Of a stretch of 64,000 bases of DNA, positions 2,741 through 61,069 are shown piece after piece (the stretch's first letter is position 1; each line of letters starts with the position of its first letter). Made by a program: the position numbers and the translations under genes. A model generated the notes under the pieces. That model made no database searches and was not told the origin of the DNA. It saw only the letters and a program-made list of their open reading frames with translations. This DNA is from Rossellomorea marisflavi (GTDB lineage: Bacteria; Bacillota; Bacilli; Bacillales; Bacillaceae_B). The stretch covers positions 631,501 through 695,500 of the forward strand of contig CP033051.1 in assembly GCA_003667865.1 (NCBI GenBank). Reading direction: 5' to 3'.

Positions 2741-3936
2741 GCTCCCCCCATTTGCCACTGAATCTCTTTTAATGGAAAACTCGCTTTTACACTAAAACCT
2801 TTTGACGGATTGCTTTCGAATACGATACTGCCACCGTGTTCATGCACGCGTTCTCTCATATTTTTAAGTCCAAATCCGGGATTCACCTTTGTAGAACCAG
2901 AGCCATTATCTTCAATAATGATTTCCAAAGTAGACTCAGACACTCCCATGACAATGCTGCATTCATCTGCTTGCCCATGTCGTACCGCATTGGTAATGGA
3001 CTCTTGAATTACTCGTGTTGTATCTAGCTGGATTGAAATCGGAATATGTGACACATCTCCTTTTACGGTAAAACTCGACTTCAATCCCGTCATCTTTTGA
3101 TAGTCTTCGAGAAGCTTTCGAATAGTAGAAATAAGTGATTGCGGCTGCACATGATCCTTCAGCGTGCGGACAGATAGCCGAATTTCTTGAAGTGTATTTC
3201 TCGCTAGCTCCTCACAAAGCAGCATCGTTTGTTTGCTTCTTTCTGGTTGTGAGTCTAACAATTCCTTTGCTACCTGGAGCTGTACAAGCAATGCTGTCAT
3301 TTTATGACCAACTGTATCATGTATCTCTCCTGAAATTCGGTTCCGTTCTCGAATCAATGTCAACTCTTCTATTTCACTAGAATAATGGTGTAGCTGTTGA
3401 TGCGCACTTTTTAAAGCTTGATGTGTTTCTTGAAGCTCGTCATATTGTTGTTCAATTTTCTGTTGTGCATGAGAAAGCTTATAAATCAAGTGACCTACAA
3501 CCGCTGCGAACAGGACAAACGTAAAATTAATAACATGCTCCATCACGTGTAAACTGCCTGTTACACGATAAGCATAGTAGAACGATCCGCCCCAAATCAT
3601 GAAGAACGCAAGTGCAAATCCCCATATGATTCTTTTATTCTCTGAAAATAAAAAGAGTGTTACAGCATTGACTCCAAACAATATTAAATAAAGAGTTGAT
3701 TCTGGAAAGAAATACACAAATCCAACAATAAAAAGAGAATCTAATGCCAGCGGAATAGAATAATATTTCTTCCCTAAAGCACTTCCTAAAAAGAGATGAT
3801 TCAATGAAAATCCTATAACAGCAAATAGGACAAATCCGAGTTGGAATGCTGTATGCTCCCCAACAGAAGAATAGTAGATATAACTAATCAGAATAAACAT
3901 AACCAGGCGAATATTACTTAAAAGCCTTAACTTCAT
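2737..3936 (-). CDS. Sensor histidine kinase, HisKA_3 type (LnrJ-like)
   Basis: This membrane sensor kinase pairs with the overlapping response regulator. About six hydrophobic segments fill residues 8-152. A coiled-coil linker follows, then the HisKA_3 dimerisation helix with phospho-acceptor H206 in GEIHDTVGH. The ATPase domain has an N-box (ITNAVRHGQ) and G-boxes (DNGSGS, GFGLKNMRERV). The start at 3936 has AGAGGTG five bases upstream; the reading from 3972 adds a Cys-rich leader without a ribosome site. At 399 residues it is close to B. subtilis LnrJ. A polyene or linearmycin-type membrane stress signal is inferred from synteny only. Confidence 0.88.
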   Translation of the reverse strand: MKLRLLSNIRLVMFILISYIYYSSVGEHTAFQLGFVLFAVIGFSLNHLFLGSALGKKYYSIPLALDSLFIVGFVYFFPESTLYLILFGVNAVTLFLFSENKRIIWGFALAFFMIWGGSFYYAYRVTGSLHVMEHVINFTFVLFAAVVGHLIYKLSHAQQKIEQQYDELQETHQALKSAHQQLHHYSSEIEELTLIRERNRISGEIHDTVGHKMTALLVQLQVAKELLDSQPERSKQTMLLCEELARNTLQEIRLSVRTLKDHVQPQSLISTIRKLLEDYQKMTGLKSSFTVKGDVSHIPISIQLDTTRVIQESITNAVRHGQADECSIVMGVSESTLEIIIEDNGSGSTKVNPGFGLKNMRERVHEHGGSIVFESNPSKGFSVKASFPLKEIQWQMGGA

Positions 3937-4071
3937 ACCACACCTCTTTAGAGGACAGATACACTGTCCCATACTAGTAAACTCTCAGATTAGGTAACAT
4001 TATCCTCACTTTGACCGAACTGGAAGATACCTCCATTATAATCCTAAAAGCACCGTTTGGAAATTGTAAAT

Positions 4072-4113
4072 AGGGACGGACCTTTCGCGCCTCAAGCGCG
4101 AAGGTCCGTCCCT
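4072..4113. repeat. GGGACGGACC palindrome, copy 1
   Basis: AGGGACGGACCTT and AAGGTCCGTCCCT flank a CGCGC/GCGCG stem and a five-base loop, with one unpaired T. It sits 40 bases behind the stop of the minus-strand anti-sigma gene. It belongs to a family with further copies at 6255, 23721, 38140 and (imperfect) 39612. Confidence 0.85.
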
Positions 4114-4153
4114 GTATAAATACTTGAAGGTCTATGTCTTTTTAGTATGGACT

Positions 4154-5566
4154 TCATTCAGAATACAAGTAAGGTTTTTGCTCCCAAGTAAGTTGCTCTT
4201 TATCATTATTTCTCCCATAAAAGGAAGCTATCTTTGGAACATCCACTCGTACAATGTATTGATATTGTCCTTGGTCCCATACTTTTTTATTTTTCTTCTT
4301 GAATTCCTCAGAAGCATTTACAATTCTAGTAAATTCATCTAGAAAATATTTTCCTGCCTCCTTTGCTATTGAATCAGAAGTACTCTCTTCCATACTAACT
4401 ACAAAGTATAAAGGAGAGTGACCCTCACCTGTGACAGTCCCCCTTTCTACGCTGGGAAACCTTTCTAATAGTCTTTTAGTTGCAAGATCAATTAATTCTG
4501 TTTTAATTTTCATTTTTTCTAATTCTGATAATATTTCTTCATAGTTCGTGTAATTATCGGGAACCTCTAGTGTTAGTGTCAAATCTTTAAGTTCTTCATT
4601 TAGTTTTAACTCTTTGTAGATAATATTTGTAACCTTAACACCAGAGTTATATCCATTCTTCTCTAGAACAATTCCTGTGTCATAATCAATTTTTGCTATT
4701 ATTTCATCCCATACTTGATTTCTAGCATCATTCCCTTTTAACTTTAACAACACCCAGTTTTCTTTCTCACTTTTCTCAACAAAACTCCACTCATAATCTT
4801 TAAACTCTGTTTCATCCAAGTGATACACTGGATCTCCATTGTAAAGTCCTCTATCCTTCTTCCATTCTGAAGCAGATATAGAGCTAGTTTTCATATGTTG
4901 GAAGGTTTTATTCATGTGATTAACAATGACAACTTTATCATTCATTGAATAATAGGATAAGTTGCCGATGAGTTCACCATTTTTATAGTTTTTTGTATTT
5001 TCCTTTTCAATAAATTGATCACCTTCAAAAGTTGCAACAATTTCTTTTTCCGTTATTTCACCTGTGTCAAGGCTCTCGACTTCATATCTAAGATAATGTT
5101 TATTTATTTCGGTGCTTTCTTCATCGTATATACCTTGAAAATATTTCTTCCACTCTTCACCTGTTTTGTCCCATTGGGTATCTACATTCTCTTCTTCTAC
5201 TTCAGGCTCAACAGGTTTTTCTTCTGGCTCTTGTTCCTTTACATAATCCTCTACTTTACTTGTCGGTATCTGATCGACTGGAGGTACGACTACCCTTTGA
5301 TCCGGTTCCTCTTCATGAGTTTCTGTAGCTAACTGATCATTAGTATTGTCGTTAAGGTCGAAGAAAGAAAAAGAAATAACAGATAGCAATACAACAGCAG
5401 CAGCTGTTAACCCGTAATGAAAATATACAGACTTTTTAGAAGTGGCCTTTGCTTCCGTAGCTTTTTGCATAATCTCAGCTCTTCTAGATCTAAATTGGTG
5501 TTTTGAAAAAATGTCTTTTTCTAACGAATTCTTTATCTCTTGCTGTTCTTGTTGTTTATTTTTCAT
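4154..5566 (-). CDS. Membrane-anchored anti-sigma factor candidate
   Basis: This 470-residue protein has a charged cytoplasmic N-terminus (1-47), one membrane segment (about 48-69), an acidic Pro-rich linker and a large external domain rich in beta-type sequence. Its gene overlaps the upstream ECF sigma gene by 11 bases, the usual arrangement for a cognate anti-sigma factor. AGGAGG is eight bases before the ATG at 5566; the ATG two codons upstream is too close. The cytoplasmic EIMQK and juxtamembrane RVVVPPV motifs recur in the second sigma-linked membrane protein (17038-17916), which marks the two as paralogues despite different external domains. I do not recognise the external domain as a named family. 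The anti-sigma role is inferred from position and topology. Confidence 0.7.
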   Translation of the reverse strand: MKNKQQEQQEIKNSLEKDIFSKHQFRSRRAEIMQKATEAKATSKKSVYFHYGLTAAAVVLLSVISFSFFDLNDNTNDQLATETHEEEPDQRVVVPPVDQIPTSKVEDYVKEQEPEEKPVEPEVEEENVDTQWDKTGEEWKKYFQGIYDEESTEINKHYLRYEVESLDTGEITEKEIVATFEGDQFIEKENTKNYKNGELIGNLSYYSMNDKVVIVNHMNKTFQHMKTSSISASEWKKDRGLYNGDPVYHLDETEFKDYEWSFVEKSEKENWVLLKLKGNDARNQVWDEIIAKIDYDTGIVLEKNGYNSGVKVTNIIYKELKLNEELKDLTLTLEVPDNYTNYEEILSELEKMKIKTELIDLATKRLLERFPSVERGTVTGEGHSPLYFVVSMEESTSDSIAKEAGKYFLDEFTRIVNASEEFKKKNKKVWDQGQYQYIVRVDVPKIASFYGRNNDKEQLTWEQKPYLYSE

Positions 5567-6107
5567 GATCATAGCCTCCTTCTCGCACTGCTTTTAACTG
5601 GTTGCGACCTCGTTCTAGTCTTGTTCGAACCGTTGATGCATTCACCTTTAAGAGCTTACTTATTTCCTCTGTGTTTAGATCCTCATAATAGAATAGGACC
5701 AAGATTTCTCGGTACTTAATAGGTAAGCTCAACAGATCTTCCCCGAGACTTTTATTGCTCTCATCTTGGATCAGAATGCTCTCGGGACTTTCAATTGATT
5801 GTTTCTGAAAAACGTGAACGATGTCGTTCCACCATGCCGTTTTACGCTTTGTCGAGCGAAGGTAATCTTTACAATGGTTAGCGGTAATACTAAAAATCCA
5901 GGTCTTCAGCTCTGACCTTTGTTCAAACCGTTTAAGGTTTTTGTATATTTTTATAAAAACGTCCTGAGAAATATCTTCTGCTAATGACCAGTCTTTTACA
6001 TAAGTATAAGCAAATTGTACGACAGCTTTTTCATACTGAACGACAATCTCATCAAAATACTCTAGCGTCAATCCTCCGTAGTCCTCTTTATTAATATCGC
6101 TTTGCAT
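5556..6107 (-). CDS. ECF-type sigma-70 family RNA polymerase sigma factor
   Basis: A compact sigma factor of about 183 residues. Region 2 shows AEDISQDVFIKIYKNL and TWIFSITANHCKDYLRS. Region 4 shows LPIKYREILVLFYYEDL and the helix-turn-helix NASTVRTRLERGR. Two starts are possible: ATG 6107 with GGAGG five bases upstream (preferred), or ATG 6119 behind AAAGGGG. It is cotranscribed with the membrane anti-sigma candidate. A TGAGAC-N17-CGTC element upstream suggests autoregulation. It is clearly paralogous to the sigma factor at 17922-18479 (shared YVK-W, AQ/EDISQ and ITAN-CKDYLR blocks). Confidence 0.9.
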   Translation of the reverse strand: MQSDINKEDYGGLTLEYFDEIVVQYEKAVVQFAYTYVKDWSLAEDISQDVFIKIYKNLKRFEQRSELKTWIFSITANHCKDYLRSTKRKTAWWNDIVHVFQKQSIESPESILIQDESNKSLGEDLLSLPIKYREILVLFYYEDLNTEEISKLLKVNASTVRTRLERGRNQLKAVREGGYDHEK

Positions 6108-6156
6108 GGCATCCTCCATGGTGTATAGCCCCTTTATAAATTAAATTCAATTCTTT

Positions 6157-6183
6157 GACGTATGAAGGGGATATACTGTCTCA
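6157..6183 (-). promoter_or_regulatory. ECF-type promoter, candidate autoregulatory
   Basis: Minus strand: TGAGAC (6183-6178), 17 bases, then CGTC (6160-6157), 38-50 bases before the possible starts of the ECF sigma gene. ECF promoters carry a GAAAC-like -35 and a CGTC/CGTA -10. The same element with identical spacing precedes the second ECF gene. Confidence 0.6.
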
Positions 6184-6254
6184 TTATTTAACGAATTTAT
6201 TTTAAATTATAGTTAAAGAAATAGACGAAAACTAAGAACAGACGTTACACGAAA

Positions 6255-6293
6255 AGGACGGACCTTTCGCGAATAACGCGAAGGTCCGTCCCT
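6255..6293. repeat. GGGACGGACC palindrome, copy 2
   Basis: AGGACGGACCTTTCGCG and CGCGAAGGTCCGTCCCT flank a five-base loop. It begins immediately after the stop codon of the minus-strand DUF3221-like gene and may serve as its terminator. The stem heads match copy 1; the centre differs. Confidence 0.85.
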
Positions 6294-6294
6294 C

Positions 6295-6639
6295 TTATTT
6301 GGTTATGAGACTAGCATGGGCACTAGGCGGTAAAGATTCTTGGGTGATCCCGTCCCAATAGACACGAACTTTCTCACCAGGTTCAAAGTTGGTTCTTAGA
6401 ATCTTATTAATGAAAGGCATATAATAGTAGGTTCCTTCCATTTTATAGGCTTCTGAATTAACAATTGCAGCAATTTCTTCTTTTGTTCTACCATGTGCCA
6501 TCTTATTATCAAGCTCAACAACATATACACTACCATCACTCGCTGAAGCAACATAACCATGATCAACTTTCGAATGAACAAACCAATAAATAATTCCCAC
6601 AATTATACTGAACACAAGTAAACGTCTTATCTTCTTCAT
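6295..6639 (-). CDS. Small membrane-anchored protein, DUF3221-like
   Basis: This 114-residue protein has an N-terminal hydrophobic anchor (about 5-22) and a small external domain. The domain opens with GYVASASDGSVYVVE and closes with PGEKVRVYWDGITQESLP plus an Ala/His tail. That pattern (a glycine-led strand pair, then a V-W-F/Y-DG-ES-P motif) is the one I associate with DUF3221/YobA-like proteins of Bacillus. No function is known to me. AAAGGGG lies eight bases before the ATG. It lies upstream of the ECF pair on the same strand, but promoter space separates them. Confidence 0.65.
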   Translation of the reverse strand: MKKIRRLLVFSIIVGIIYWFVHSKVDHGYVASASDGSVYVVELDNKMAHGRTKEEIAAIVNSEAYKMEGTYYYMPFINKILRTNFEPGEKVRVYWDGITQESLPPSAHASLITK

Positions 6640-6798
6640 ATAATTAACCCCTTTAATACTCTATTTATACATATCCTAACAGAATCTGGACCTAACTTAT
6701 TTGGTAATAATCCACAAAAGTTTCTCCAGCTTTTCAGTGACAATAGCTTGCACCATTAAAAACAAAAATTCATAGTGTAGAGTAGACGAGGTGATGTT

Positions 6799-6939
6799 TT
6801 GGATAATTATAAAAAATATGAAGTCATTCCGATGGGCACAAGTAAAGGGTTTGAGATCGACTTAGAGAAAATGTACAAAGAATTTGAGGAAGCCACAAAG
6901 CAAGCAATGGAGATGCAAGACAAAATAAAAAAGGAATAA
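6799..6939 (+). CDS. Small charged protein, 46 residues, TTG start
   Basis: A TTG at 6799 follows GAGGTG by five bases and opens a 46-codon frame ending TAA. The product is hydrophilic and Lys/Glu-rich: DNYKKYEVIPMGTSKGFEID, then a predicted helix ending KQAMEMQDKIKKE. Codon use looks like real coding sequence, and the alternative ATG at 6794 gives only a short unrelated frame. No homologue is recognised. It stands alone between a minus-strand gene and the dynamin operon terminator. Confidence 0.55.
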   Translation: MDNYKKYEVIPMGTSKGFEIDLEKMYKEFEEATKQAMEMQDKIKKE

Positions 6940-7051
6940 TATTTTATTTTGCATTTTGCCTCAAATATACCAAAGAAGTAGGATGCATCATTGCCAACGT
7001 CCAACTTAATTTGTAATATGGGTTTTTCTCCAAGAAAAAGCTATCAAACTG

Positions 7052-7091
7052 AAAAAAATACAATAGCCCCCTTCTCACTAAAAGGGGGCTA
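7052..7091 (-). terminator. Terminator of the dynamin operon
   Basis: On the minus strand TAGCCCCCTT and AAGGGGGCTA flank an eight-base loop and are followed by a T-rich stretch. It lies 13 bases past the stop of the 931-residue GTPase, the last gene of the operon. Confidence 0.85.
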
Positions 7092-7103
7092 ACAGAAGTT
7101 TTC

Positions 7104-9899
7104 TTAACTCTCAATAAGACTTTCTCTTTTCTCAGGAACATTCTGAGCATTTTTTTCTAGATAATACTTCATGCTTTTTACTGCAAATGCATATAGATTT
7201 ACTCTTTCAATGTACTCTTGCTTTTGTTCTTTAAATGTACTTAGAGCCTGTATTTCCTCTTGGTTTACTTCCCTCTGAAAATCAACTTCTTTTTCAATTT
7301 GTTCTTCAAGTGAAGATACGATGTTACTCCAGCTATCTTTTACGATCTCTTCTATGTGATCAAAATGGGAAAGAACTTGGTTAAAGATACCTTCCACTGC
7401 TTCAATAAATGTGTTTTCTTCTAGTTGTTTTTTATAGCGGTTATAGAAGAAGGACTGACTACTTCCCCCTATAATTTTCTGAACCCCGGTTAGCATTCTC
7501 ATAGGAGAGGTGAGTGGTAAAACTTGAATTTCCTTAAGCTGCTTCTCATAGATGGTTGATTCCACATTTTCTAGTAATACCGAGAGAAACTTCTCGTGAT
7601 AGTGGAGTGACATATCCTTTCCAACTAACCCTTCTATTTTCACCTGGAACTGATGCTTTTTAATCTTCATTCTCATTTCTGAAGCATTCTTACTATCTAA
7701 CCATCTTTTAATTTCGAATAATAAGGCTGGTTTTAACTCTTGTTCCCAACTAGACTTAATTTCTTGGTTCATATACTGATTAATGTCTAGATGTACTGTT
7801 TGTAGATTACTGTCCGGTCGCAGCATTCTTGTGCATGCTCTCATTTTGGGAGGTACGGTTTCCCACACTCTATTAACAAAAACAGTACGAGCCTTATGAA
7901 GCTCTTGCAGTAATAATTCTTTTTGTTGTGTACAGTACTCTCTTATTTGCTGTTTTTCAACATTTAGATCAGCAACCAGCTTAAGCCTTTTCTTAATGGA
8001 TTGGTTATATTCTTTTTCGACCCGTATTAAGTCTTCTTCCTTAATATAGTGGGTTGCTTCAAGTAGCTTTGATACTAAGTGCTTACCGCGATGTTCTAGG
8101 TAATTTCTTCGAAAGCCTCTATCCACAAAGCTCATGAACTCATTTATATAAAAATCTGTGTTTGTAAGCGAAGAAAACGGTTGTACAAGAGCATTTTTGA
8201 AATGCTTTTTCACTTTCCTATTTGTATCTTCTAGTAAATCCTCTGCATCTTCTTCATCCTCTTCAATATCAATCTTATTCAGAAGAAAATGTAACGGTAT
8301 ATCTGAGTTTTTTTCATGTATTTCGAGGAGTTTTATCTTTTCTTCCTTTGTAAACGGTGTTCTGGCATTCAATACAAATAGAATCCCATCCGCTAGATTA
8401 AGATGGTCTAGTACCTCATTCGCTCCATCCTCATTATCATTAAAACCCGGTGAATCAATGAGACTTAAAGAATGCATTTCTAATCTTGGATTCGGGAGGG
8501 CGAAATGAACAAACCCTTTCGTATGGGTACCCTTTCCACTGTCATGATTGATCGTCGTAAGGGTTTTAAAATCTTCAAGTGAATCTAGTTGCTTGATATC
8601 CTGACGGTGAATAAGCTGCACATTCTGCTCATGCTGATGTTCTAATACAACCATGGTGGAGGTTGTTGGGAGAACTTCTGTTTCTAACAGCTCTTCCCCT
8701 ACTATCGTATTAATCACACTCGATTTACCATTACTGAAAGTCCCTGCTACAAACAAGTGAAGTTCCTCAAACTTTTGAAGATAGTGCACCCACCAGTTCA
8801 ACCCATTAGGCAGTAAAAAATCTTCTTGTTTTATCCATTGAAGAAATCTATTCGATACATCTTGTAGAAAGAGTATATGTTCTTTATGATTATGAGCTTC
8901 TCTATCTTTAATATCCGCTAACATATCCTTACTAAATGGTGTTAGGAAAACATCATTCCAAGCAAACATATAGGATTGAATGATTGGTCTTTCGTCTTTT
9001 GAGATCTTCCACCAGTTTTTCAACAGTGTCGGCATTAGATTTTTAACCTCTTTTATATCGTGCTCTTCAAACATAAGGCTATGAAAACTAGGCTGATAGT
9101 GTGAAGCAATTGGTTTCAAGTCATAACCTTCATTTTCTAACACCTTATACGTAAAGTTAAATGCATGTAGCCATAGTACATGTTTATCTGAACTGCGATA
9201 GGATTCCCATAGCATAGAAATCACTTCATTAAATATCTTTTCTCCCTTAGCAAAAAGAACCTTGATTACTTCCGTTAGGTGTCCTGGGTAAAGCATCTGA
9301 ATTCGTTCCTGCTGAATATATTCTCTTAATTTCATAATCCAAAAATCATTATTCGCATCCTGCAAGCGTTTAATTTCAGATACGATGAAAAGAAGGGCAT
9401 CATGGTAGAGTGATTCGGCTTCAAAGAAATCTAATGCCATAAAGTTTACTTCTTTGTATTCTGGGTCTATTGCGACAATCTGATGTAGTAATTTTACAGC
9501 ATCTTGAATTCGACGGTCCTCTCGATATAAAGCAAATAGTGAAAGATCATTTTCCAATTTTAAAACTATTGAAGCGTTAGGTGTAATAGCTTGGTATAGT
9601 GACTCTGCCCTTTTAAAATCTCTTAATTCTCTATATGTGTCGGCGATATTTTTCATTGCCCAATCGTGTAAAACGGTGTCTGTAACCTTTTCCCATTTAA
9701 AAATGGCCGTTTCATAATCAGAACAATGAAAGTAATATTCTCCTTGCATATAACGTATTGCCAATAGTTCCTGACTGTCTCCTGCTTGGTTAAGTAGGTG
9801 ACTAAGCTGTGAGGTTAGATTGTCTTCAGACTCACTCGTAAAGGAGGCATATGCCTCCTTTCTAGCGAGTAGTTGTTCTTTTTCGTGTAGTGTTATCAT
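7104..9899 (-). CDS. Dynamin-like GTPase with N-terminal helical repeat domain
   Basis: This 931-residue protein is the last gene of the dynamin operon. Residues 1 to about 370 look like TPR-type helical repeats (for example YETAIFKWEKV, FKRAESLYQAI). A dynamin-family G domain follows: P-loop GTFSNGKSS near 382-391, G3 IDSPGFND, G4 LNKID. The C-terminal 300 residues are helical and coiled-coil, as in dynamin stalks. I see only a weak hydrophobic patch, unlike its two partners. It starts five bases after the small-protein stop with little Shine-Dalgarno, so it probably relies on coupling. A membrane-remodelling partner of the upstream GTPases is the likely role; the TPR-like domain may select targets. 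Confidence 0.8.
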   Translation of the reverse strand: MITLHEKEQLLARKEAYASFTSESEDNLTSQLSHLLNQAGDSQELLAIRYMQGEYYFHCSDYETAIFKWEKVTDTVLHDWAMKNIADTYRELRDFKRAESLYQAITPNASIVLKLENDLSLFALYREDRRIQDAVKLLHQIVAIDPEYKEVNFMALDFFEAESLYHDALLFIVSEIKRLQDANNDFWIMKLREYIQQERIQMLYPGHLTEVIKVLFAKGEKIFNEVISMLWESYRSSDKHVLWLHAFNFTYKVLENEGYDLKPIASHYQPSFHSLMFEEHDIKEVKNLMPTLLKNWWKISKDERPIIQSYMFAWNDVFLTPFSKDMLADIKDREAHNHKEHILFLQDVSNRFLQWIKQEDFLLPNGLNWWVHYLQKFEELHLFVAGTFSNGKSSVINTIVGEELLETEVLPTTSTMVVLEHQHEQNVQLIHRQDIKQLDSLEDFKTLTTINHDSGKGTHTKGFVHFALPNPRLEMHSLSLIDSPGFNDNEDGANEVLDHLNLADGILFVLNARTPFTKEEKIKLLEIHEKNSDIPLHFLLNKIDIEEDEEDAEDLLEDTNRKVKKHFKNALVQPFSSLTNTDFYINEFMSFVDRGFRRNYLEHRGKHLVSKLLEATHYIKEEDLIRVEKEYNQSIKKRLKLVADLNVEKQQIREYCTQQKELLLQELHKARTVFVNRVWETVPPKMRACTRMLRPDSNLQTVHLDINQYMNQEIKSSWEQELKPALLFEIKRWLDSKNASEMRMKIKKHQFQVKIEGLVGKDMSLHYHEKFLSVLLENVESTIYEKQLKEIQVLPLTSPMRMLTGVQKIIGGSSQSFFYNRYKKQLEENTFIEAVEGIFNQVLSHFDHIEEIVKDSWSNIVSSLEEQIEKEVDFQREVNQEEIQALSTFKEQKQEYIERVNLYAFAVKSMKYYLEKNAQNVPEKRESLIES

Positions 9900-9904
9900 C
9901 TTAC

Positions 9905-10216
9905 TTAATCAAATGTTAATGGATCCATTTTATATTGGTTTACATGCTTCAATGGATCCTCATGATGAATAACCGTTTTTAGACCTGTTTCGCCTACTGG
10001 TGGGTCATAAGACAAATTATTCTCCAGAATCCCGTCCGGACTTGTGCGAATATGCGATTTAACTCCTACCCATTCACCATTCACGGGCATTTTATCTGAA
10101 CCTGTATATGACTTGTTATTTTGCTCAATTCCATCTGGAGCTGTCCTTGCATGGCTTTCAACATTGACAACATCTGTATTAACTGAATGACTTGGGTCAA
10201 AGTAAAATTCACTCAT
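9905..10216 (-). CDS. Small protein with duplicated H-RT-PDGI-NN-SY motif
   Basis: A 103-residue hydrophilic protein encoded between two dynamin-like genes. It carries two copies of one motif: VESHARTAPDGIEQNNKSY and VKSHIRTSPDGILENNLSY, about 33 residues apart. Similar H-R-PDG-NN-SY motifs occur in some short bacterial proteins, but I cannot assign a function. Its ATG shares one base with the stop of the preceding GTPase, and AGAGGAGG inside that gene's end serves as ribosome site, so translation is coupled. Retention inside the operon suggests a partner or cargo of the GTPases; this is inference. Confidence 0.8.
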   Translation of the reverse strand: MSEFYFDPSHSVNTDVVNVESHARTAPDGIEQNNKSYTGSDKMPVNGEWVGVKSHIRTSPDGILENNLSYDPPVGETGLKTVIHHEDPLKHVNQYKMDPLTFD

Positions 10217-11973
10217 TATAAAAATCCTCCTCTATTCTCTTCATTTGTAACAAGCTGTAGGACAGGCTCTATTTGTTCATGTCCTTCAATTTTTTCAAGC
10301 TTCCTTTCAAGTTCTAAACGCAGCTTGGCTTGATAGGAATTCATTGTTTGTTCAAACATTTCAACACTATTTAATAAAAGTGCGTCAATCGTTTCGTCAA
10401 TGTATTGCTCTAGCCCTTGTTCAATTTTTTCAACAGCTTGTGTAATAGCCTTTTCTACTTGTGGTAGAACCTCTTGTTTTGCACGATCAAGTTTTCTATC
10501 ACCTAGTAACTTGTTGATAATTGGGAATCCCGCTAATGAAATCAAAGGAAGTAGCATAAATCCGCCCATTGCCATAAAGAGAGCTGCTGCTCCACCGGCT
10601 AAAAGGCCACTTTCAAAGTAGGCATTACTAGAGACCTTTTGATTAGTAATGACAATATTTTCTTTGTGTTGCATACGATACGAATGATAATGGACCTTAA
10701 GACTAGAAGAATATTGGCTAAAAAGTCTTTCAAGCCCTTTCTCAACTTCTAGAACAAGCTGATCAAATAACGTTGTAACATTCGGTGTATGTGCATTCAC
10801 CCAGGATTGTATTTTTCTTTTTAGTAAAAGAGGTAGTGTATTTTCAACATATCCTTTAAAATCTCCTTGGTGAAACGCCTGGATATCTTCAAAGGTTTCC
10901 TCTATTAAATTCTCTTCAAAATGTCGGATGGACTTTCGGGTGATTAATAGAATTTCACGTTGCCTCTCCCTTATATACGATTCAAGCTTTTTCTTTTTCC
11001 GATTAGCTTCTTGACGGAACTGCTCAATCTTTTCGAATTCCTCTTGTATGGCCTCTTTGTTCATTGCTTTTCTTCGTTCTTTCTCTTCTATTTCCATGCG
11101 TACAAAGGAATAAATTGTTTGAAGTCTACTTTCATAAAAAGCCAACTTTTTATTTGCTAGTGTTCCATTATCTAATCGGTCATTAAGGAACTCTGTAAGT
11201 CTTGCAAAATCTTCATTCTGTGGATTCTTTTGTGCCTCTTTGGCAGATAGGAAATAGTAATGAATAGGTTCCTCACCAAGTACTTTCTTTAATTTTTTCT
11301 TAATATACTCTTCTGATTCTTCCCAATCATCCTCATCTATACGATCCTTATAGTTAACAACAAACGCAATCTCACCATGCTTTAACTTCATTACTGTTTC
11401 TTTTAAATAGCCCATTTCAGATTTACTTAATGGTGATGCTGCATTAATGACAAAAAGAATTAAGTCAGATCTAGGAATATAGCTATACGTGACATCTAAT
11501 TGATGATCATTTAAATCTCCTATTCCTGGTGTATCTACTAAAATCGTTCTATTATTTTTAAAAGGTAGAGGTAATTGTAGCTTTAAAAGATTGATATCTT
11601 TATGATCCTGAGTTCCTTCAAACGTAAAATCTTCTAGTTCATGCCTACTTAATGGACGTTCTTCTACTTGTCCACTTTTAAAATAGACTTCATACTTTTC
11701 TGTCTCACCATGACGGATTTCACTTACAGCTGCTGTAGCAGGAAGTACGTCGACTGGAAGTATTGGATTCTGTATTAGAGCATTTAATAAAGAGGATTTC
11801 CCTCTCTTAAATTCTCCCAAAACTGTGATCATTAATGAATCATGTTCTAAATCATTTATAAAATGCGATAAAGGTTGAAAGAAATTAGATTCCGGTAAGG
11901 AACGTTCCATATTTTCATATAGTTTCTTACTATTAGCCAATAACTCTTGTCTTTTCTGCTCGTAGCTCGTCAT
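10216..11973 (-). CDS. Dynamin-like GTPase with C-terminal membrane hairpin
   Basis: 585 residues. The G domain has P-loop GEFKRGKS (53-60), a switch-region Thr in LPATAAV, G3 DTPG (147-150) and a G4-like VNYKD in place of TKxD. Coiled-coil stalk helices follow. A hydrophobic hairpin lies near residues 440-475 (GLLAGGAAALFMAMGGFM, LLPLISLAGFP). This is the layout of bacterial dynamin-like proteins such as B. subtilis DynA or BDLP. The ATG at 11973 has GGAG seven bases upstream; an in-frame TTG two codons earlier is less likely. The stop lies 12 bases from the upstream GTPase stop-start junction, so the operon is tight. Confidence 0.85.
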   Translation of the reverse strand: MTSYEQKRQELLANSKKLYENMERSLPESNFFQPLSHFINDLEHDSLMITVLGEFKRGKSSLLNALIQNPILPVDVLPATAAVSEIRHGETEKYEVYFKSGQVEERPLSRHELEDFTFEGTQDHKDINLLKLQLPLPFKNNRTILVDTPGIGDLNDHQLDVTYSYIPRSDLILFVINAASPLSKSEMGYLKETVMKLKHGEIAFVVNYKDRIDEDDWEESEEYIKKKLKKVLGEEPIHYYFLSAKEAQKNPQNEDFARLTEFLNDRLDNGTLANKKLAFYESRLQTIYSFVRMEIEEKERRKAMNKEAIQEEFEKIEQFRQEANRKKKKLESYIRERQREILLITRKSIRHFEENLIEETFEDIQAFHQGDFKGYVENTLPLLLKRKIQSWVNAHTPNVTTLFDQLVLEVEKGLERLFSQYSSSLKVHYHSYRMQHKENIVITNQKVSSNAYFESGLLAGGAAALFMAMGGFMLLPLISLAGFPIINKLLGDRKLDRAKQEVLPQVEKAITQAVEKIEQGLEQYIDETIDALLLNSVEMFEQTMNSYQAKLRLELERKLEKIEGHEQIEPVLQLVTNEENRGGFL

Positions 11974-11985
11974 AAACAATCTCCT

Positions 11986-13908
11986 TTACTTTTGGATGAG
12001 CTGTTTTTCAAGCTCCTGATTCCATTGAGAGAACTGTTGGAAAATATTCTGCAGCTGCTCTTTCTGACGGTTATAATAGGTTCTTTTTGCCTCAATTTCC
12101 TGTTGTTCCAATCTTTTTGATTGTATAAGGCCATTTAACTCTTCTTTAAGCTGATTGGCTTTTGTTATTACTTCTCCATCAAATTCATCTATGATGGTTT
12201 GTACCGTAGACTCCCATTCCTTCTCAAAGGAAGCTATTGCTTTTTTCTTATTTTTTCTCATCGCTTGATAGAAGCTGCTTTTCACACTATCTAATTGCTT
12301 TTGTCGCTCACGCTCTTTGTATTGCTCGCGTACACTAGCACCAAATCCAAAGAACGAAGCAATCGCTGCAGGAATTAGTGGAATTGCCAGAATCGGTAGG
12401 GCAATAACTGCTGCAAGCGCTCCTAACCCAAGAGAACCTAAAGCAATGCCCCCTAATATCATAAAATCATCATCAAAGGCTGTGACATGTAACCCGTCTA
12501 ATTCTAATGATAGATTAAAGCTTTCCTTTACTTGATTATCGAGCTTTTTCGTTTCACCCTCTAATTCACTGTAAGCCCTCACTGTATATCCACTCAGCAC
12601 GGATTTTTGTTTTTCCATGAGTTTCTGCTGCATTTCTTTTTGAATTGGATTCGAAATAGACGAAATATGAGCTTTCATATTCTCTTTTGTAATGTCTCCA
12701 TAATAGTAGGTTAAACTGTCTTCAACCTCAGCACTCATTCGGTCCATGTTCTTTTGAATAGTTGCTTTCATTGCATCTAATTCTGATATTAGATTCGCCC
12801 GTAAGGTGTTTTTGATAGATGAACCTCTTTGTAGGAAACTGTCCACCTGCGGAAGAAGTTCTTCTATTTTTTGAAGAACATGTTCTCGTTCCATACTAAG
12901 CGCTTGAATTTTCATCGATAACGAACCTTCAATAAGATCCTTTGAAAGCTTCATCCCCCTTTTAATCGGCTTAAGCAGTTTTACATTTCCTCGTTCGTTT
13001 TGAAAAAACACCCCAAGCTCTTCCTCTAATGCAGGTATTCCTGTTTCGATTAGTTCTTGTTCCAATTGAGATAAGGGTTCAGACATTTCCGCTTGGGCTT
13101 GTCTAATTCGTAGGGCTTCCTTACCTGAAATCATAAACACCTTTGGATTATGAAGAAGATCCTCGAGGTTCTTTCGAACAAACTCTTGAACACGTTCAAC
13201 TGACTCTCGAGTTTGTAGTGAATCCTTAAAATTAACGGCAATAAACACTTTTGAGACATCAGCGTTTAAGATCTTTTGTTGCAGAAACCCTTTTTCTGAT
13301 TTTGACAAAGGCGCTTCTGCTGTTAAAACAAGGATTACCGCATCTGATTTAGGAATAAACTTGTATGTAATGTCCTCTCTAGTTTCCTCCAAATCGTTTA
13401 CTCCAGGTGTATCATAAATTTCAACGCCGTTTTGACAGATTGCATTGGGAATTCCTAGTTCTGCATAGTCAATTTCTTGAATCCTCTCAACAGCACGTTG
13501 GTATTCCTCTATTTCTTCAGGATCATCTTCATCTGGTTCATTAGGAGCATTTAGATTTTTTAGTTCCTTTGCTGTAATTGAAACAGGAGCCTTCTCATTA
13601 TGGAAATGAAGCTGAATAAATTGTTCAGTGCTGTAGGTAATCTTATTTAAGATGGCTGTTGTGGGGCGTCCTTTTGAAGGAAGTAGTTTCTCTCCGATAA
13701 GAGAGTTAATGAACATTGATTTCCCTCTATTGAACTCGCCAACCACTGTTAGCATAAAGGCATCCTTTTCTAATTGTTTAATCGTCTCGTTCGTTCGATT
13801 GTGGATTGTATGGAGATGAAGTTCTTCTGCGATACTAGAAATTATACCTAATTGCTCTAGTACATGATTTCTCTTACTCTCATATTCTGTAAATCGTAAA
13901 GATGACAT
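11986..13908 (-). CDS. Dynamin-like GTPase, first gene of the riboswitch operon
   Basis: 640 residues. P-loop GEFNRGKS (57-64), G3 DTPG (166-169) and G4-like VNFKD are visible, followed by long helical stalk regions. A strongly hydrophobic paddle lies near 460-505 (ALGSLGLGALAAVIALPIL). A Gln/Glu-rich coiled coil ends the protein. The start at 13908 has AAAGGGG seven bases upstream; the extended reading from 13956 would translate the terminator hairpin and is rejected. It resembles the second GTPase more than the third. Dynamin-like pairs act on membranes by GTP-driven assembly; roles in membrane repair, phage tolerance and Eleos-type defence are known for relatives. Expression should follow c-di-GMP through the upstream riboswitch. 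Confidence 0.85.
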   Translation of the reverse strand: MSSLRFTEYESKRNHVLEQLGIISSIAEELHLHTIHNRTNETIKQLEKDAFMLTVVGEFNRGKSMFINSLIGEKLLPSKGRPTTAILNKITYSTEQFIQLHFHNEKAPVSITAKELKNLNAPNEPDEDDPEEIEEYQRAVERIQEIDYAELGIPNAICQNGVEIYDTPGVNDLEETREDITYKFIPKSDAVILVLTAEAPLSKSEKGFLQQKILNADVSKVFIAVNFKDSLQTRESVERVQEFVRKNLEDLLHNPKVFMISGKEALRIRQAQAEMSEPLSQLEQELIETGIPALEEELGVFFQNERGNVKLLKPIKRGMKLSKDLIEGSLSMKIQALSMEREHVLQKIEELLPQVDSFLQRGSSIKNTLRANLISELDAMKATIQKNMDRMSAEVEDSLTYYYGDITKENMKAHISSISNPIQKEMQQKLMEKQKSVLSGYTVRAYSELEGETKKLDNQVKESFNLSLELDGLHVTAFDDDFMILGGIALGSLGLGALAAVIALPILAIPLIPAAIASFFGFGASVREQYKERERQKQLDSVKSSFYQAMRKNKKKAIASFEKEWESTVQTIIDEFDGEVITKANQLKEELNGLIQSKRLEQQEIEAKRTYYNRQKEQLQNIFQQFSQWNQELEKQLIQK

Positions 13909-13941
13909 AACGATACCCCTTTGTTGTAGTTCGATAGATAT

Positions 13942-13968
13942 AAAAAAAGCCCACACTAGGTGTAGGGC
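13942..13968 (-). terminator. Riboswitch expression-platform terminator
   Basis: On the minus strand GCCC-T-ACAC, a short loop, GTGT-GGGC and then seven T. It lies between the c-di-GMP aptamer and the first GTPase gene, 34 bases before the ATG. It is the likely on/off switch of the operon. Confidence 0.85.
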
Positions 13969-13983
13969 GAATACATACGTAAC

Positions 13984-14082
13984 TATGTAAAAGCAGCCCG
14001 ACGATCATCGTTCGATTTGAACCTTAGACTCGTGGCTTTGCGTCCTTACTTTTCAGTAAGTTTGCCCTCATTTTATCACTTT
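13984..14082 (-). promoter_or_regulatory. Cyclic di-GMP-I (GEMM) riboswitch aptamer
   Basis: On the minus strand the class-defining blocks appear in order. GGGCAAAC is followed by a CTTAC/GTAAG hairpin with a GAAA-type loop, then GGACGCAAAGCC and GTCTAAGG. A second hairpin (GGTTC/GAACG) follows, then GATGATCGTCGGGCT, the tetraloop-receptor and 3' part. A UAAAA/UUUUA pairing can close P1. It ends about 15 bases before a rho-independent terminator, so control is transcriptional. Whether c-di-GMP turns the operon on or off cannot be read with confidence. Confidence 0.92.
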
Positions 14083-14094
14083 TTGACTATGTCT

Positions 14095-14100
14095 ATTATA
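14095..14100 (-). promoter_or_regulatory. Likely -10 box of the riboswitch operon
   Basis: TATAAT on the minus strand, 13 bases upstream of the aptamer. No good -35 lies at 16-18 bases, so I report only the -10. Confidence 0.5.
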
Positions 14101-14547
14101 CTATAAACCTTTTAATACTTTTATATAAATGTGCACTCTAAACCAAGGAAGTATATTCCAAATTCTTTATTTTTATTATAGAGGGTTCTTGCTTACTATG
14201 CTTTTCGGATGGTTTTGCATTGTATAAATTACATGGACGTTCCATTTATGCTCCAGTCACTTGATTTCCACAAAGAGAGAGTCGAGCTTCCAGGGTAGAC
14301 TATTCCGTTCCAGTGGGTTGAATAAATACTCAAAATGTCTCTTACAACATTCCCCGTTATCATTAATATTTCTGTAATGAAAATACATCTTAACTCAACA
14401 ATAATTTTATGGGCTAGCAGATACCATTGTTGTAACAAAATAAATTAATAAGGGTTAACTTACCAATATTACAATTATTCTACTAATGTTTCATTTCTAT
14501 TAAACCCATATACTTTTACTTGTATGTAAAAAGTAGGAGGTTTGGAC
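14101..14547. other. AT-rich gap with no recognised gene
   Basis: About 440 bases between the riboswitch promoter and an SLH gene. A 69-codon minus-strand frame at 14229-14438 lacks a convincing ribosome site or recognisable motif. The right end should hold the promoter of the SLH gene. Confidence 0.4.
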
Positions 14548-15606
14548 ATGAAAACAAAAGGTCTCTTTTTAGCTATTCTGTCTATATTTTTATTATTAGG
14601 CACTTCATTATCAAGTGTAAGTGCAGCAGAAAATACACTTAATAGCTATGTTATTTCAGATATGGATCCAACAGAATTTGGGTTTTGGCAAATTGATGAT
14701 TTTGTTAGTGCTGATATTATGGATGGTTTTATGGATCCGTCAACCGGTGCCATGAGCATCCAACCAAATAAAAATATAACAAGAGCGGAATTCACAAAGA
14801 TTTTAATAAATGCATTAGGAATAGAAGTAAAATCATTACCGCAAACATTCCAAGATGTAAAGTCGGATAAATGGTACTACGACTATATTAATACGGCGAA
14901 CTCACTAGGTATTGTACAAGGCTTTTCACCGAGTGAATTTAAACCAGGTAGCAACATCACTAGAGGGCAAATGGCTGCTATGATTGTTAGAGCATTTGAA
15001 GATACAGTATCTTTCCCATCTTCGACTGGTCAGATTTTCCCGGATGTTCCCTATCATGCAAGGTTTGCTAGTGAGATTAATAAAGCAGCAGCCCTAGGAA
15101 TCGTTACAGGCTTTGGTGATTATACATTCCGTTCAAGCAATCTTGCCAATCGTGCTCAAGCGGTAGTCGTTATGTTCCGTGCACTTTCTAATGAATCCGC
15201 TATAGCTACAACAGAAGCAGAAGTTACTGCTGTAGTTACAGATTACCTTACAAGAGAAGGAGCAAACCATAACGACATGGACCTTGCTTATGATATTATG
15301 GCGCAATATACTACTGGTTACTATTTAGCAGACGGTAGTCAAATTAATGGTGACTACAAAAACCTAGTAAGCAATGGGTACGATGTCTCCTTAATAGGAG
15401 ATGTTTCAGCAATGCAACTATCGGTGGATTTTCTATCTGATCGTTTTGCTGAAATTATTGTTACTGGGACTACAAATACAGCCGTTATCATTGACAGTAA
15501 TGGAGAACGCTTTGAGAAAACATCCAATCCGAATGACGGGAAGTTCTTCTTAAAGAAAATGATTGATGGATCTTGGAAGGTTTATAACTTTTATCCACAA
15601 GGTTAA
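14548..15606 (+). CDS. Secreted S-layer-homology (SLH) domain protein
   Basis: 352 residues with a signal peptide (cleavage near SSVSA, 23-27) and three SLH domains. SLH1 contains NITRAEFTKILINALG. SLH2 contains FQDVKSDKWYYDYI and ITRGQMAAMIVRAF. SLH3 contains FPDVPYHARFASEI and a weaker NRAQAVVVMF. A C-terminal domain of about 140 residues, possibly NTF2- or lipocalin-like, is not recognised. SLH triplets bind pyruvylated secondary wall polymers, so this sits on the wall. The ATG at 14548 has AGGAGG seven bases upstream; a TTG two codons earlier is rejected. A strong terminator follows. Confidence 0.88.
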   Translation: MKTKGLFLAILSIFLLLGTSLSSVSAAENTLNSYVISDMDPTEFGFWQIDDFVSADIMDGFMDPSTGAMSIQPNKNITRAEFTKILINALGIEVKSLPQTFQDVKSDKWYYDYINTANSLGIVQGFSPSEFKPGSNITRGQMAAMIVRAFEDTVSFPSSTGQIFPDVPYHARFASEINKAAALGIVTGFGDYTFRSSNLANRAQAVVVMFRALSNESAIATTEAEVTAVVTDYLTREGANHNDMDLAYDIMAQYTTGYYLADGSQINGDYKNLVSNGYDVSLIGDVSAMQLSVDFLSDRFAEIIVTGTTNTAVIIDSNGERFEKTSNPNDGKFFLKKMIDGSWKVYNFYPQG

Positions 15607-15630
15607 AAACAACTATAAATAGACGATCAT

Positions 15631-15691
15631 AGTCCCTATCGTGTAGATGACTTTTTACAACGAGTCTACGCTATAGGGATTTTCCTTTATA
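15631..15691 (+). terminator. Terminator after the SLH gene
   Basis: TCCCTAT-CG-TGTAGA pairs with TCTACG-CT-ATAGGGA across a roughly 20-base loop, followed by TTTTCCTTT. It closes the SLH transcript. Confidence 0.7.
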
Positions 15692-15765
15692 TTCATATAG
15701 TTTTAACACCCTAATTCACATATAATCAATTTATTATTCTTAATACAATAAATATGAGGTGGAAC

Positions 15766-16966
15766 ATGGTGTTAGAAAGCGAATTGAAAAATCGATTGGT
15801 TCATCGTAAAGAAACACTTTATTTTGTTTTAACATTACTAGTTAGTATTTTTACTTATCTGATTCTAGTCATTTCCGTTGTTGGAATCATGATTATTCTA
15901 GGTCTTATCCTTGTATCATACTTTTTCCACGCTTTATCTGGTCCCTGCCATATATATTATTGAATCAACAGGAATTCTTAATGCATTTGCTACACGATTC
16001 TTTGGTAAAAACATGGTTGTACTATATTCAGAGATTTTTGATCTATTAGAAGAAGAACGCGAGGACGAGTTACTGTTTGTTCTTGCTCATGAGTTTGCTC
16101 ATCTAAAGCGTCGTCATGTTTTGGTCCATTTGTTACTTCTTCCAGCAATGTTTATTCCTTTTCTTGGTGAAGCTTATTTAAGGGCTTGTGAATATACATG
16201 CGATCGCTATGCAGCTTTTTATGTCGGAAGTTTGGATACAGCGAAAGAGGCACTGTCCATACTAGCTATTGGTAAGAAGCTTTCTAGTAAAATGAATAAA
16301 GAAGCGTACGTTCAACAAATAAGTGAGGAATCTGGTTTTTTTGCGTGGTTGAGTGAAAAGCTTTCTAGTCATCCAGATTTGCCAAAAAGAATCAATAGTT
16401 TGGACAACTGGGCAAATCCTACTCAATATTCTCTTATACGGGAAAAGAAAACCCGGATCATTCTTGGCGTGAGTGCTTCCTTAGTAATTCTATCCATTTT
16501 AGGAACTCTTCTAGTTAAAGGGATTCCTACTATCATTACCTTCTTTGAAGACCCTTATTTGTATGATGATAGCGAATACTATTATGAAGAGGATGTACTT
16601 GAATATCCACCTATTATTCAAGCCTATATGGATGATGACATGGTACTTTTTCAGCAATTAGTTGAGGAAGGAACAGCGATTGATGAGAAAGATATGGATG
16701 GTTATACGGCTCTTCACTATGCTGTTACATGGGAGGACTTAGAAACTGCCGAGTACCTCATTCAAAGTGGGGCTGATGTGAATACTCTGGACAATTGGGG
16801 TTCGACTCCACTAATGAATGCTGTTTATAATCAGGCTAGTGTTGAAATGGTAACGTTGCTATTGGAGTACGGAGCTGATAAAACGATTATGGACTCAGAA
16901 GGAAAAACAGCTTATGACTATGCGGTAGATAATAGAGATGCTGAGCTTAGAAATATACTAAAATAA
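15766..16966 (+). pseudogene. M48 family metallopeptidase with ankyrin repeats, broken by a frameshifting deletion
   Basis: The first frame (from 15766, or GTG 15769) encodes two membrane helices and stops at 15963. A second frame, overlapping it from 15911, continues the same protein: VPAIYIIESTGILNAF, the zinc motif LAHEFAHLKRRH, CEYTCDRYA, a third helix, and two to three ankyrin repeats (GYTALHYAV, GSTPLMNAV). Intact family members have about 35-40 residues between the second helix and VPAIYI. Here FFHAL runs directly into LVPAIYI in another frame, so an internal deletion removed that piece and shifted frame. The second part has only a TTG with no Shine-Dalgarno. I call it inactivated, although a truncated product with the catalytic motif cannot be excluded. 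Confidence 0.8.
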
Positions 16967-16988
16967 TATCAGGTCGTTTTAATCACAT

Positions 16989-17029
16989 AAAAAAGCGAGC
17001 AGGAATCAATGCCTGCTCGCTTTTTTTTG
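16989..17029. terminator. Bidirectional terminator
   Basis: AGCGAGCAGG and CCTGCTCGCT flank an eight-base loop, with A-run on the left and eight T on the right. It separates the convergent M48 remnant and the second anti-sigma candidate gene. Confidence 0.92.
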
Positions 17030-17037
17030 CATCTATG

Positions 17038-17916
17038 TTACTCAGCGTTAGTTTTTTTCCAAAGGGTTAGACGAGTAATCGTAGCTTGATGGTCAAGTAC
17101 CTCTACTAGAGTATCCTTGTTTGGTTCTGAAGATAACTGATGATCTCCTTTTGATACATCAAAAATCACATAATATTCATCTACTTTATAAGATATTTGG
17201 ACAATAGCAAAGATTTCATTAAACCCTACGTTTCCTTCACCAAATGTACGAAACAGTTTATTGACACTGACTCCAGATAACTTAGGTGAGAAGATTTCTT
17301 TAACCGTTCCACCATCTTCAATTCCTGTGTTCAGAAAGTAGTCTCCATATTCATAGTTATAACTCATCTCCGCCCCACGACCTTTATAGCTTGGTTGACC
17401 GAACTGCTGAATCATATCCTCATAGCTCATACCAATATAAAAATCTGTACCGTACATATGTCCCTCGCTTGCATCCTTCATAAATGCATCTGGATTTGCT
17501 AATATGGCTTCCAAATCTATCGTATCGGAATGTGTGATCTCTACTGATTTGGGAACCTCTTCCTCGATAGCAGGTTCCGGATTTGGTTGTTCTTCTATAG
17601 GAGGGACTGTTACCACTCTATCACCCACACCTTCTGGTTCTTTCTCCACCACTTTAGGTTCAGGAGCATTTTTTTCTGCTGCTGATGGTAGAGAGTTTGG
17701 ATCTGAGGACATTTCACTTAACACATAAGGTGATCCTAATATTCCAATAAGGATTAGTGCCGCAAATGTTAAGCCCCAATGAAGCATTTGTTTCGTATGT
17801 CTCTTTTTATTTTCACGATGAATACGTTGCATAATTTCTTCTTTTTGTGAAGGAATAGAAGATTTAGACATTTGTTCATCAATTTCTCTTTTTAAGTTTT
17901 GTAATGGATCCCTCAT
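17038..17916 (-). CDS. Membrane-anchored anti-sigma factor candidate (second pair)
   Basis: 292 residues: cytoplasmic N-terminus with EEIMQRI (26-32), one membrane segment (about 47-66), an acidic Pro-rich linker with DRVVTVPPIEEQ, and an external domain of about 170 residues. That domain has two similar halves, each led by a G-QPSYKGRG- or GEGNVGF-type turn. It recalls DUF4309/YjgB-type domains, but the match is tentative. The ATG at 17916 has GGAGGAG eight bases upstream and follows the sigma stop closely; a GTG at 17925 overlapping that stop is the alternative. Position and topology suggest it holds the upstream ECF factor at the membrane. Confidence 0.7.
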   Translation of the reverse strand: MRDPLQNLKREIDEQMSKSSIPSQKEEIMQRIHRENKKRHTKQMLHWGLTFAALILIGILGSPYVLSEMSSDPNSLPSAAEKNAPEPKVVEKEPEGVGDRVVTVPPIEEQPNPEPAIEEEVPKSVEITHSDTIDLEAILANPDAFMKDASEGHMYGTDFYIGMSYEDMIQQFGQPSYKGRGAEMSYNYEYGDYFLNTGIEDGGTVKEIFSPKLSGVSVNKLFRTFGEGNVGFNEIFAIVQISYKVDEYYVIFDVSKGDHQLSSEPNKDTLVEVLDHQATITRLTLWKKTNAE

Positions 17917-17921
17917 TCTAC

Positions 17922-18479
17922 TCACTCCTCCTCCAACACTTGTTGTAATTTTCTTCTGCCTCTTTCTAGACGTGTCCTTACCGTTGAAGAGGAAATTCCT
18001 AAAAGTTCGGCAATTTCTTCTGAGCTTAGTTCTTCATAGTAATATAGAATGATAACCTCACGATACTTCACTGATAAAGTAAGTACTGCGTTGTACAGCT
18101 GGGAGTCATTTTCTTTTTCGACAACGATACTCTCTGTTGAGTATTCAGTGGATTGTGTTTTTGAAGTTTCCTGCTTAATCCCAAAGACTGTTCGTTTGAA
18201 ATAAGATGTTCGGAGATAGTCTTTACACTTATTTGCTGTTATTTTATATATCCATGTTTTATAAGAAGAAGCCCCTTCAAATGTATCTATAGAGTGATAA
18301 ACTGCTATAAAAACTTCCTGCGAGATATCCTGTGCAGTATTCCATTCTTTCACATAGAAGAATGCTAATTTCACTACATCTTTTTCATAAGTATCAATCA
18401 AGTCCTCTAAGAGAGCATCTTTTGATGTATGAATGTCTAGTTGTTTGTCTATTCGATTTAGTAATGGGTACATCCCCAT
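17922..18479 (-). CDS. ECF-type sigma-70 family sigma factor (second pair)
   Basis: 185 residues. Region 2 shows AQDISQEVFIAVYHSI and TWIYKITANKCKDYLRT. Region 4 shows LSVKYREVIILYYYEEL and SSSTVRTRLERGR. The start at 18479 (MGMYPLLNR) has GGGGAG six bases upstream; the longer reading from 18638 would run through the promoter and has no ribosome site. It is cotranscribed with the membrane protein at 17038. It is paralogous to the sigma factor at 5556, and both have the same promoter-type element upstream. Confidence 0.9.
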   Translation of the reverse strand: MGMYPLLNRIDKQLDIHTSKDALLEDLIDTYEKDVVKLAFFYVKEWNTAQDISQEVFIAVYHSIDTFEGASSYKTWIYKITANKCKDYLRTSYFKRTVFGIKQETSKTQSTEYSTESIVVEKENDSQLYNAVLTLSVKYREVIILYYYEELSSEEIAELLGISSSTVRTRLERGRRKLQQVLEEE

Positions 18480-18511
18480 TAAACTCTCCCCTTTCATGTT
18501 TCTATATAATA

Positions 18512-61050: not shown

Positions 61051-61069
61051 TCGACATAAGTGAATAACC

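Follow-up and report, generated by a model that had tools for sequence, protein, structure and literature searches.

What might a riboswitch for cyclic diguanylate (c-di-GMP) be doing in front of a row of dynamin-like GTPase genes? The question is raised by a locus of Rossellomorea marisflavi within a stretch of 64,000 nucleotides (contig CP033051.1, positions 631,501 to 695,500; hereafter the window, to whose numbering coordinates refer unless another locus is named). An Rfam covariance-model scan places a c-di-GMP-I aptamer (RF01051) on the minus strand at 13989-14076, where it scores 79.6 bits (gathering score 35; E-value 5e-14), directly upstream of a four-gene operon that encodes three dynamin-like GTPases and a small repeat protein. 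The earlier note on this DNA had claimed such an arrangement, with a terminator between aptamer and operon, and had called for a covariance-model search; the search returned a full-length match that passes the gathering score, and the gene order is as claimed. The reading favored here, which we regard as evenly balanced between right and wrong, is that a riboswitch with predicted attenuation controls the operon as an OFF switch, and that the encoded proteins protect the membrane against phage or envelope damage.

The aptamer alignment covers all 87 positions of the RF01051 model (1-87) and marks no non-standard pair, with GAAA as the GNRA-type P2 tetraloop and GGGCAAA as the core. The putative specificity position, G20, carries a G. 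A G20A variant of c-di-GMP-I binds cyclic GMP-AMP (PMC6274999). The putative expression platform is an intrinsic terminator at 13942-13968 (minus strand), with a GCCC...GGGC hairpin at 13968-13949 (stem 13966-13950 in the terminator scan; -9.4 kcal/mol) followed by seven T. A putative promoter lies upstream at 14095-14129 (minus strand), where the -10 box proposed in the earlier note is recognizable by eye as TATAAT at 14100-14095 and where 17 of the 22 bases of the -10 region are identical in Rossellomorea vietnamensis; the -35 is weak, and the promoter scan gives only an overlapping 9/12 match. As classes, the terminator and promoter scans of the window perform at or below chance (6 terminators found vs. 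4.9 in shuffles; 14 promoters vs. 24.7), so the placement of these elements counts for more than their number.

The four genes of the operon are encoded on the minus strand and closely spaced, the tightest junction being an overlap of 1 base and the widest a gap of 12 bases, and ribosome-binding sites are clear by eye 5' of genes 1-3, less so 5' of gene 4. The first gene, for dynamin-like protein 1 (DLP1; 11986-13908, 640 aa), starts at an ATG at 13908, with an alternative frame of 656 aa from a GTG between the terminator and the ATG; the second (DLP2; 10216-11979) yields 587 aa from a TTG or 585 aa from an ATG behind AAAGGAG. These are followed by the gene for the small repeat protein (9905-10216, 103 aa), by the gene for a 931-aa protein (7104-9899), here termed TPR-dynamin, and by a closing terminator with a 12-pair stem and a T-run (7064-7091, minus strand). 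The three large proteins match Dynamin_N at 82-93 bits (89.8, 93.1, and 82.2 bits, respectively) against a Pfam cut-off of 27, and the columns of the GTPase motifs GxxxxGKS, D(T/S)PG, and NxKD are invariant or nearly so across 10 DLP1 proteins. The dynamin half of the earlier description of the 931-aa protein as TPR-plus-dynamin is thus sustained, while the TPR matches in its N-terminal, TPR-like region fall below the Pfam cut-off. Hydropathy peaks are present in DLP1 (a hydrophobic stretch near residue 498) and DLP2 (near residue 465), with none comparable in TPR-dynamin, which reaches a maximum of 0.97 and has no strong hydrophobic stretch. The predicted structure of DLP1, the only one of these proteins that was modeled, displays long helices (mean pLDDT 76, below 50 in the hydrophobic residues 472-524) and has 2J69 as its best PDB match, with an E-value of 1e-18 but a TM score of 0.41; the model resembles BDLP and IniA. 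The small protein contains the repeat SHxRTxPDGIxxNN in two copies and has a DPLKH tail, as seen in an alignment of 8 operon small proteins. A search of 5.8 billion proteins, which needs shared short words, returned six other clusters at E <= 0.001 and, under that restriction, none of the long small proteins known from the type 2 operons introduced below.

The genome (4.59 Mb, one contig) contains 11 RF01051 matches. Of the ten outside the operon, one is followed by genes for CheW and a methyl-accepting chemotaxis protein (MCP), two by further MCP genes, two by genes for GGDEF proteins, and one each by genes for an HD protein, an SLH-GDSL esterase, a NERD protein, and a protein without Pfam match; the last lies at a place with no clear target. 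Seven of the ten hence precede MCP, CheW, GGDEF, HD, or SLH-GDSL surface-protein genes, in keeping with the earlier statement that c-di-GMP-I usually controls motility, adhesion, surface, or chemotaxis genes, and the dynamin operon would therefore have its signal in common with the classical c-di-GMP gene set.

Operons of the DLP1 type (E <= 1e-60) were matched in 10 of 149 other genomes, in 21 of the 397 genomes of an order-level draw (own genome included), and in 8 of the 398 genomes of a class-level draw, five of which were already known, with the own genome among them. They fall into two types. Type 1 comprises DLP1, DLP2, sometimes the small protein, and TPR-dynamin in last position, and in type 2 a third dynamin, roughly 530-1280 aa long, comes first or last and is accompanied by DLP1, DLP2, and usually a small protein; the module, in which DLP1 and DLP2 are joined by another large dynamin and often by a small protein, is found mostly in the Bacillota, and also in one Acidobacteriota genome. 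At the Rfam gathering score, c-di-GMP-I lies directly upstream in 3 of 25 operon loci, two of which (L099 and L100) are near-copies. The three carriers are the window, R. vietnamensis (NBRC 101237, NZ_BCVQ01000002.1; type 1, DLP1 56% identical, aptamer 79.3 bits), and Peribacillus acanthi (type 2, a dynamin operon of different order; aptamer 78.4 bits). The order aptamer, terminator, first dynamin is common to all three, with a hairpin and T-run between aptamer and start codon in 3/3 leaders. A gene-neighborhood survey, as the earlier note had suggested, thus finds the pairing kept in one relative and recurring in another, although at no more than 3 in 25 the riboswitch is an optional add-on and not something that operons of this kind generally possess.

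Wider scans did not extend this set. Among 79 loci from named genomes, the same two relatives were recovered (L101 and L134), and two further loci, L109 and L112, have riboswitches nearby that are not directly upstream. Both were dropped as further cases: in L109 the operon is surrounded by four c-di-GMP-I aptamers, and in L112 a single c-di-GMP-I precedes an upstream PAS-MCP-like gene. The four aptamers of L109, from Oceanobacillus salinisoli, lie within 16 kb (2611-18052), and by eye the one at 17969-18052 precedes a GTP cyclohydrolase I-like gene. A purpose-built covariance model (R1), which had only 8 pairs and so worked as a sequence-like scan, returned on the first 25 sources three strong hits, in agreement with Rfam, and three weak hits (E 0.23-4.8) that were discarded, and no new carriers were found in the genus of P. 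acanthi (1/3) or the family of G054 (3/17). The presence of c-di-GMP-I, found in 351 of the 397 order-draw genomes, is not enriched among operon carriers (20/21 vs. 331/376 in the same draw, p 0.49). Partial matches came from 3 records of a plasmid collection and 1 record of a phage collection; all fell short of 80% coverage of DLP1, so neither collection revealed a vehicle for the operon.

The comparison of the two Rossellomorea loci indicates that the pairing is more than chance. Between the window and R. vietnamensis, the aptamer core is identical at 64 of 74 positions (86%), compared with 383/597 (64%) for DLP1 DNA, 29/84 (35%) for the platform, and 80/181 for the upstream region. With the core more alike than coding DNA and the flanks diverged, the aptamer looks to be under selection in its pairing with the operon, and the expression platform has been rebuilt between the two species with a terminator kept. 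A histidine-kinase gene near the operon in the window is located in R. vietnamensis on contig C27, with the operon on C2 and more than 50 kb from its own contig ends, so that aptamer and operon stay paired in different surroundings. In a DLP1 tree of 46 rows, at least two changes of riboswitch label are forced by starred branches, and the nearest kin of P. acanthi lack the aptamer; P. acanthi may hence represent a separate occurrence of the pairing, and a single gain followed by losses would also be compatible with the tree.

The layout of the leaders bears on the direction of the switch. The terminator starts 20, 38, and 26 nt after the aptamer in the window, R. vietnamensis, and P. acanthi, respectively, and lies outside the aptamer in all three (the R. 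vietnamensis hairpin having been set by hand). For transcripts truncated at the 5' arm of the terminator, the predicted probability of pairing between this arm and the aptamer is, in the same order, 0.68, 0.80, and 0.55, compared with 0.45, 0.55, and 0.35 for shuffled arms, the predicted partner in the window leader being GAGGGC at the ligand site. Among published systems, Cd1 of Clostridioides difficile is an OFF switch with its terminator outside the aptamer, and pilM is an ON switch in which terminator and aptamer are mutually exclusive (PMC9262584). Given a functional switch, the layout would therefore probably be of the OFF type, with c-di-GMP stopping transcription. Under high c-di-GMP, the bound aptamer would leave the terminator 5' arm free and transcription would stop; under low c-di-GMP, as in motile, free-living cells, the 5' arm would pair into the aptamer and the operon would be transcribed. 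The encoded proteins would then most likely gather at the cytoplasmic membrane and guard or reseal it when phages attack or the envelope is damaged, in a role like that of DynA, but as an added, regulated set.

Several observations weigh against this reading. Shuffled arms pair as strongly in a proportion of 0.040, 0.043, and 0.207 of cases for the window, R. vietnamensis, and P. acanthi, so support for an antiterminator is weak; for seven other leaders of this genome, a measure of that kind yields 0.06-0.62, and the terminator finder detected no terminator in three further ones. For the full-length leaders, the equilibrium terminator probability is 0.37 in the window, 0.96 in R. vietnamensis, and 0.38 in P. 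acanthi, and the R. vietnamensis value implies that read-through there is possible through kinetics only. An aptamer that binds c-di-GMP and raises expression, in sessile cells, or controls little would accommodate some of this, in particular the low window value, and has precedents in Bc1, located before an MCP gene, whose binding of the ligand leaves expression in the host almost unaltered and which, in older work cited in the same article, turned on a reporter in B. subtilis (PMC11218506). We consider this a minority possibility: terminator and aptamer overlap in none of the three leaders, unlike in pilM (PMC9262584), which argues against an ON switch, and the conservation of the aptamer core above coding DNA speaks against lost function. 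The absence of an aptamer at gathering score from 22 of the 25 operons likewise counts against the favored reading, as does a nearby sigma-factor gene at both Rossellomorea operons (44-46% identical), on account of which their surroundings are not wholly different. The former would fit a chance placement, in which a leader containing a riboswitch happened to come to lie in front of the operon and serves no function there. With 0.061 direct placements expected over 24 relative genomes (assuming 2500 units each), the chance of at least one is about 0.06, and the P. acanthi case is on its own only suggestive. Chance placement nonetheless seems very improbable, for the R. vietnamensis core has remained alike while its flanks diverged and the unit persists in two settings.

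As for what an OFF switch would control, the leading guess is membrane guarding, possibly anti-phage. Directly behind the type 2 operon of one genome (G039; L057:3336-6169, minus strand) lie matches to BnzA and BnzB (434 and 264 bits), the pair of the Bunzi defense system; Millman et al. (2022) reportedly described both Bunzi and a dynamin system, Eleos. Among 137 operon-neighbor proteins, 22 PADLOC models match one or two proteins each (SoFic included), these models comprising several of one family and generic regulators. The patchy occurrence of the operon (21/397), the BnzA/BnzB pair, and single matches like SoFic together hint at defense. As a control, 0 of 98 DynA neighbors match PADLOC at 1e-15, a weak control since DynA loci are largely syntenic core regions; on the negative side, neither TPR-dynamin nor the small protein is assigned to a defense family by PADLOC. 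In B. subtilis, DynA delays lysis and thereby shields populations from phage (PMC8844932), and a defense gene, abiF, is controlled by a premature-termination RNA that its authors call "riboswitch-like" (PMC12373285). A more specific version, in which three cooperating dynamins and the small protein would form an immune operon gated by lifestyle through c-di-GMP, with motile, phage-exposed cells armed and sessile cells off, is speculative and probably goes too far. Equally doubtful is an operon that belongs to the motility and surface program, its dynamins acting on the membrane at flagella, at chemoreceptor arrays, or in the sessile switch, with no involvement of defense. The riboswitch would co-regulate it with the MCP and cyclase genes behind most other RF01051 sites, the 137 neighbor proteins (of 23 operons) include 3 GGDEF, 2 EAL, and 2 flagellin proteins, a flagellin gene adjoins the operon in L091 and lies 2.3 kb off in L093, and a flagellin-like gene is directly upstream in L123; furthermore, the 20 kb around the operon contain at least eight additional riboswitches, distributed over 7 of 24 genomes, vs. 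1.59 expected. Both the 20-kb cut-off and the test for flagellin were, however, picked after inspection, most operons inspected show no motility neighbor, and the operon is rare in an order where c-di-GMP-I is nearly everywhere. Defense and motility or c-di-GMP roles can also both hold. A feedback loop, with one dynamin docked on a diguanylate cyclase and the riboswitch closing the circuit, is the least probable of these readings: with the CrfC model (PRK09866; CrfC, YjdA, and RdcA being names of one protein), whose cut-off is 1146, the three dynamins reach only 18.6, 16.1, and 24.6 bits, and the operon has no cyclase gene, even if the dynamin-like GTPase RdcA of E. coli does activate the cyclase DgcE by direct interaction (PMC6510439).

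The surroundings of these operons display further features. In the window, two sigma-factor-like genes (4154-6119 and 17038-18638, minus strand; 47% identical over 160 aa) flank the operon. Pfam supports the assignment of the 4154-6119 gene, the gene after each looks anti-sigma by eye, and a related sigma-factor gene is found near the dynamin operons of R. vietnamensis and G003. The window also encodes a 551-aa protein (24893-26548, plus strand) that matches the PADLOC candidate defense family PDC-M40B (119 bits; no Pfam match at 0.001) and a cobalamin riboswitch (61064-61229, plus strand; 64.2 bits). Among type 1 operons that lack the small gene, L054 (6225-6683), L055 (11992-12922), and L056 (6326-6721) have one or two divergent upstream genes each, for proteins of 127-163 aa with a common motif by eye. 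The 1116-aa third dynamin of G039 (L057:11146-14496, minus strand) contains a TcaA NTF2-like domain at about 849-958 (88 bits), and PRiA4_ORF3 matches occur in 3 of the 137 neighbor proteins, by eye in L052, L058, and L093.

Control of dynamins by a c-di-GMP riboswitch was not met among the open-access papers listed on c-di-GMP-I with Bacillus and chemotaxis, or on riboswitches and c-di-GMP with antiphage systems (titles and abstract openings). Three open-access papers mention c-di-GMP, riboswitch, and dynamin together, among them the one on RdcA and DgcE (PMC6510439). Riboswitch class and protein superfamily are both known, and the combination appears to be new within the literature searched. 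Its occurrence in three bacteria suggests that lifestyle signals may control membrane remodeling or defense. If the switch works, it offers a clean test of whether bacteria tune membrane remodeling or phage tolerance to the change between motile and sessile life; the pairings in Rossellomorea and P. acanthi, being separate, provide a natural comparison, and the finding points to a recurring gene module beyond the riboswitch itself.

Among known systems, the leader is closest to Cd1, an OFF-type c-di-GMP-I (GEMM-I) switch, with which it shares an aptamer followed by an intrinsic terminator outside the aptamer, the Rfam model being fully matched here. The c-di-GMP-I targets met in the excerpts consulted (Cd1; Bc1 and Bc2 of B. 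thuringiensis) are flagellar genes, an MCP gene, and a collagen adhesin gene, in contrast to the dynamin operon of the window. On the protein side, B. subtilis DynA is likewise a membrane-acting Bacillales member of the dynamin superfamily. Identity with DynA was rejected, because the three proteins score 37-79 bits against an NF052648 cut-off of 1600 and are single-headed, at 585-931 aa against a model length of 1187; another dynamin frame, whose 1222 aa resemble the length of DynA, lies elsewhere in the same genome (G000:C1:4018801-4021404). Eleos also has tandem dynamin-like genes, and in PADLOC DLP2 matches LeoA at 81 and LeoBC at 69 bits, and DLP1 matches LeoBC at 52 bits. Identity with Eleos was rejected as well: on a contig other than that of its operon, R. 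vietnamensis carries a distinct LeoBC/LeoA pair that scores 365 and 402 bits, compared with 52-81 bits for the operon proteins, and the two-gene pair differs from the present operon in gene number, small protein, and TPR-dynamin. The nearest solved relatives by sequence or fold are Nostoc BDLP (2J69), the Campylobacter jejuni DLP pair (5OWV), and mycobacterial IniA (6J72), and a third dynamin, a small repeat protein, and a riboswitch are absent from their names and titles. Lastly, the RdcA/RdcB-DgcE system of E. coli also ties a dynamin-like GTPase to c-di-GMP, and a link of opposite direction has thus already been published (PMC6510439): there the GTPase acts on the cyclase, whereas here c-di-GMP is predicted to act on the expression of the GTPases.

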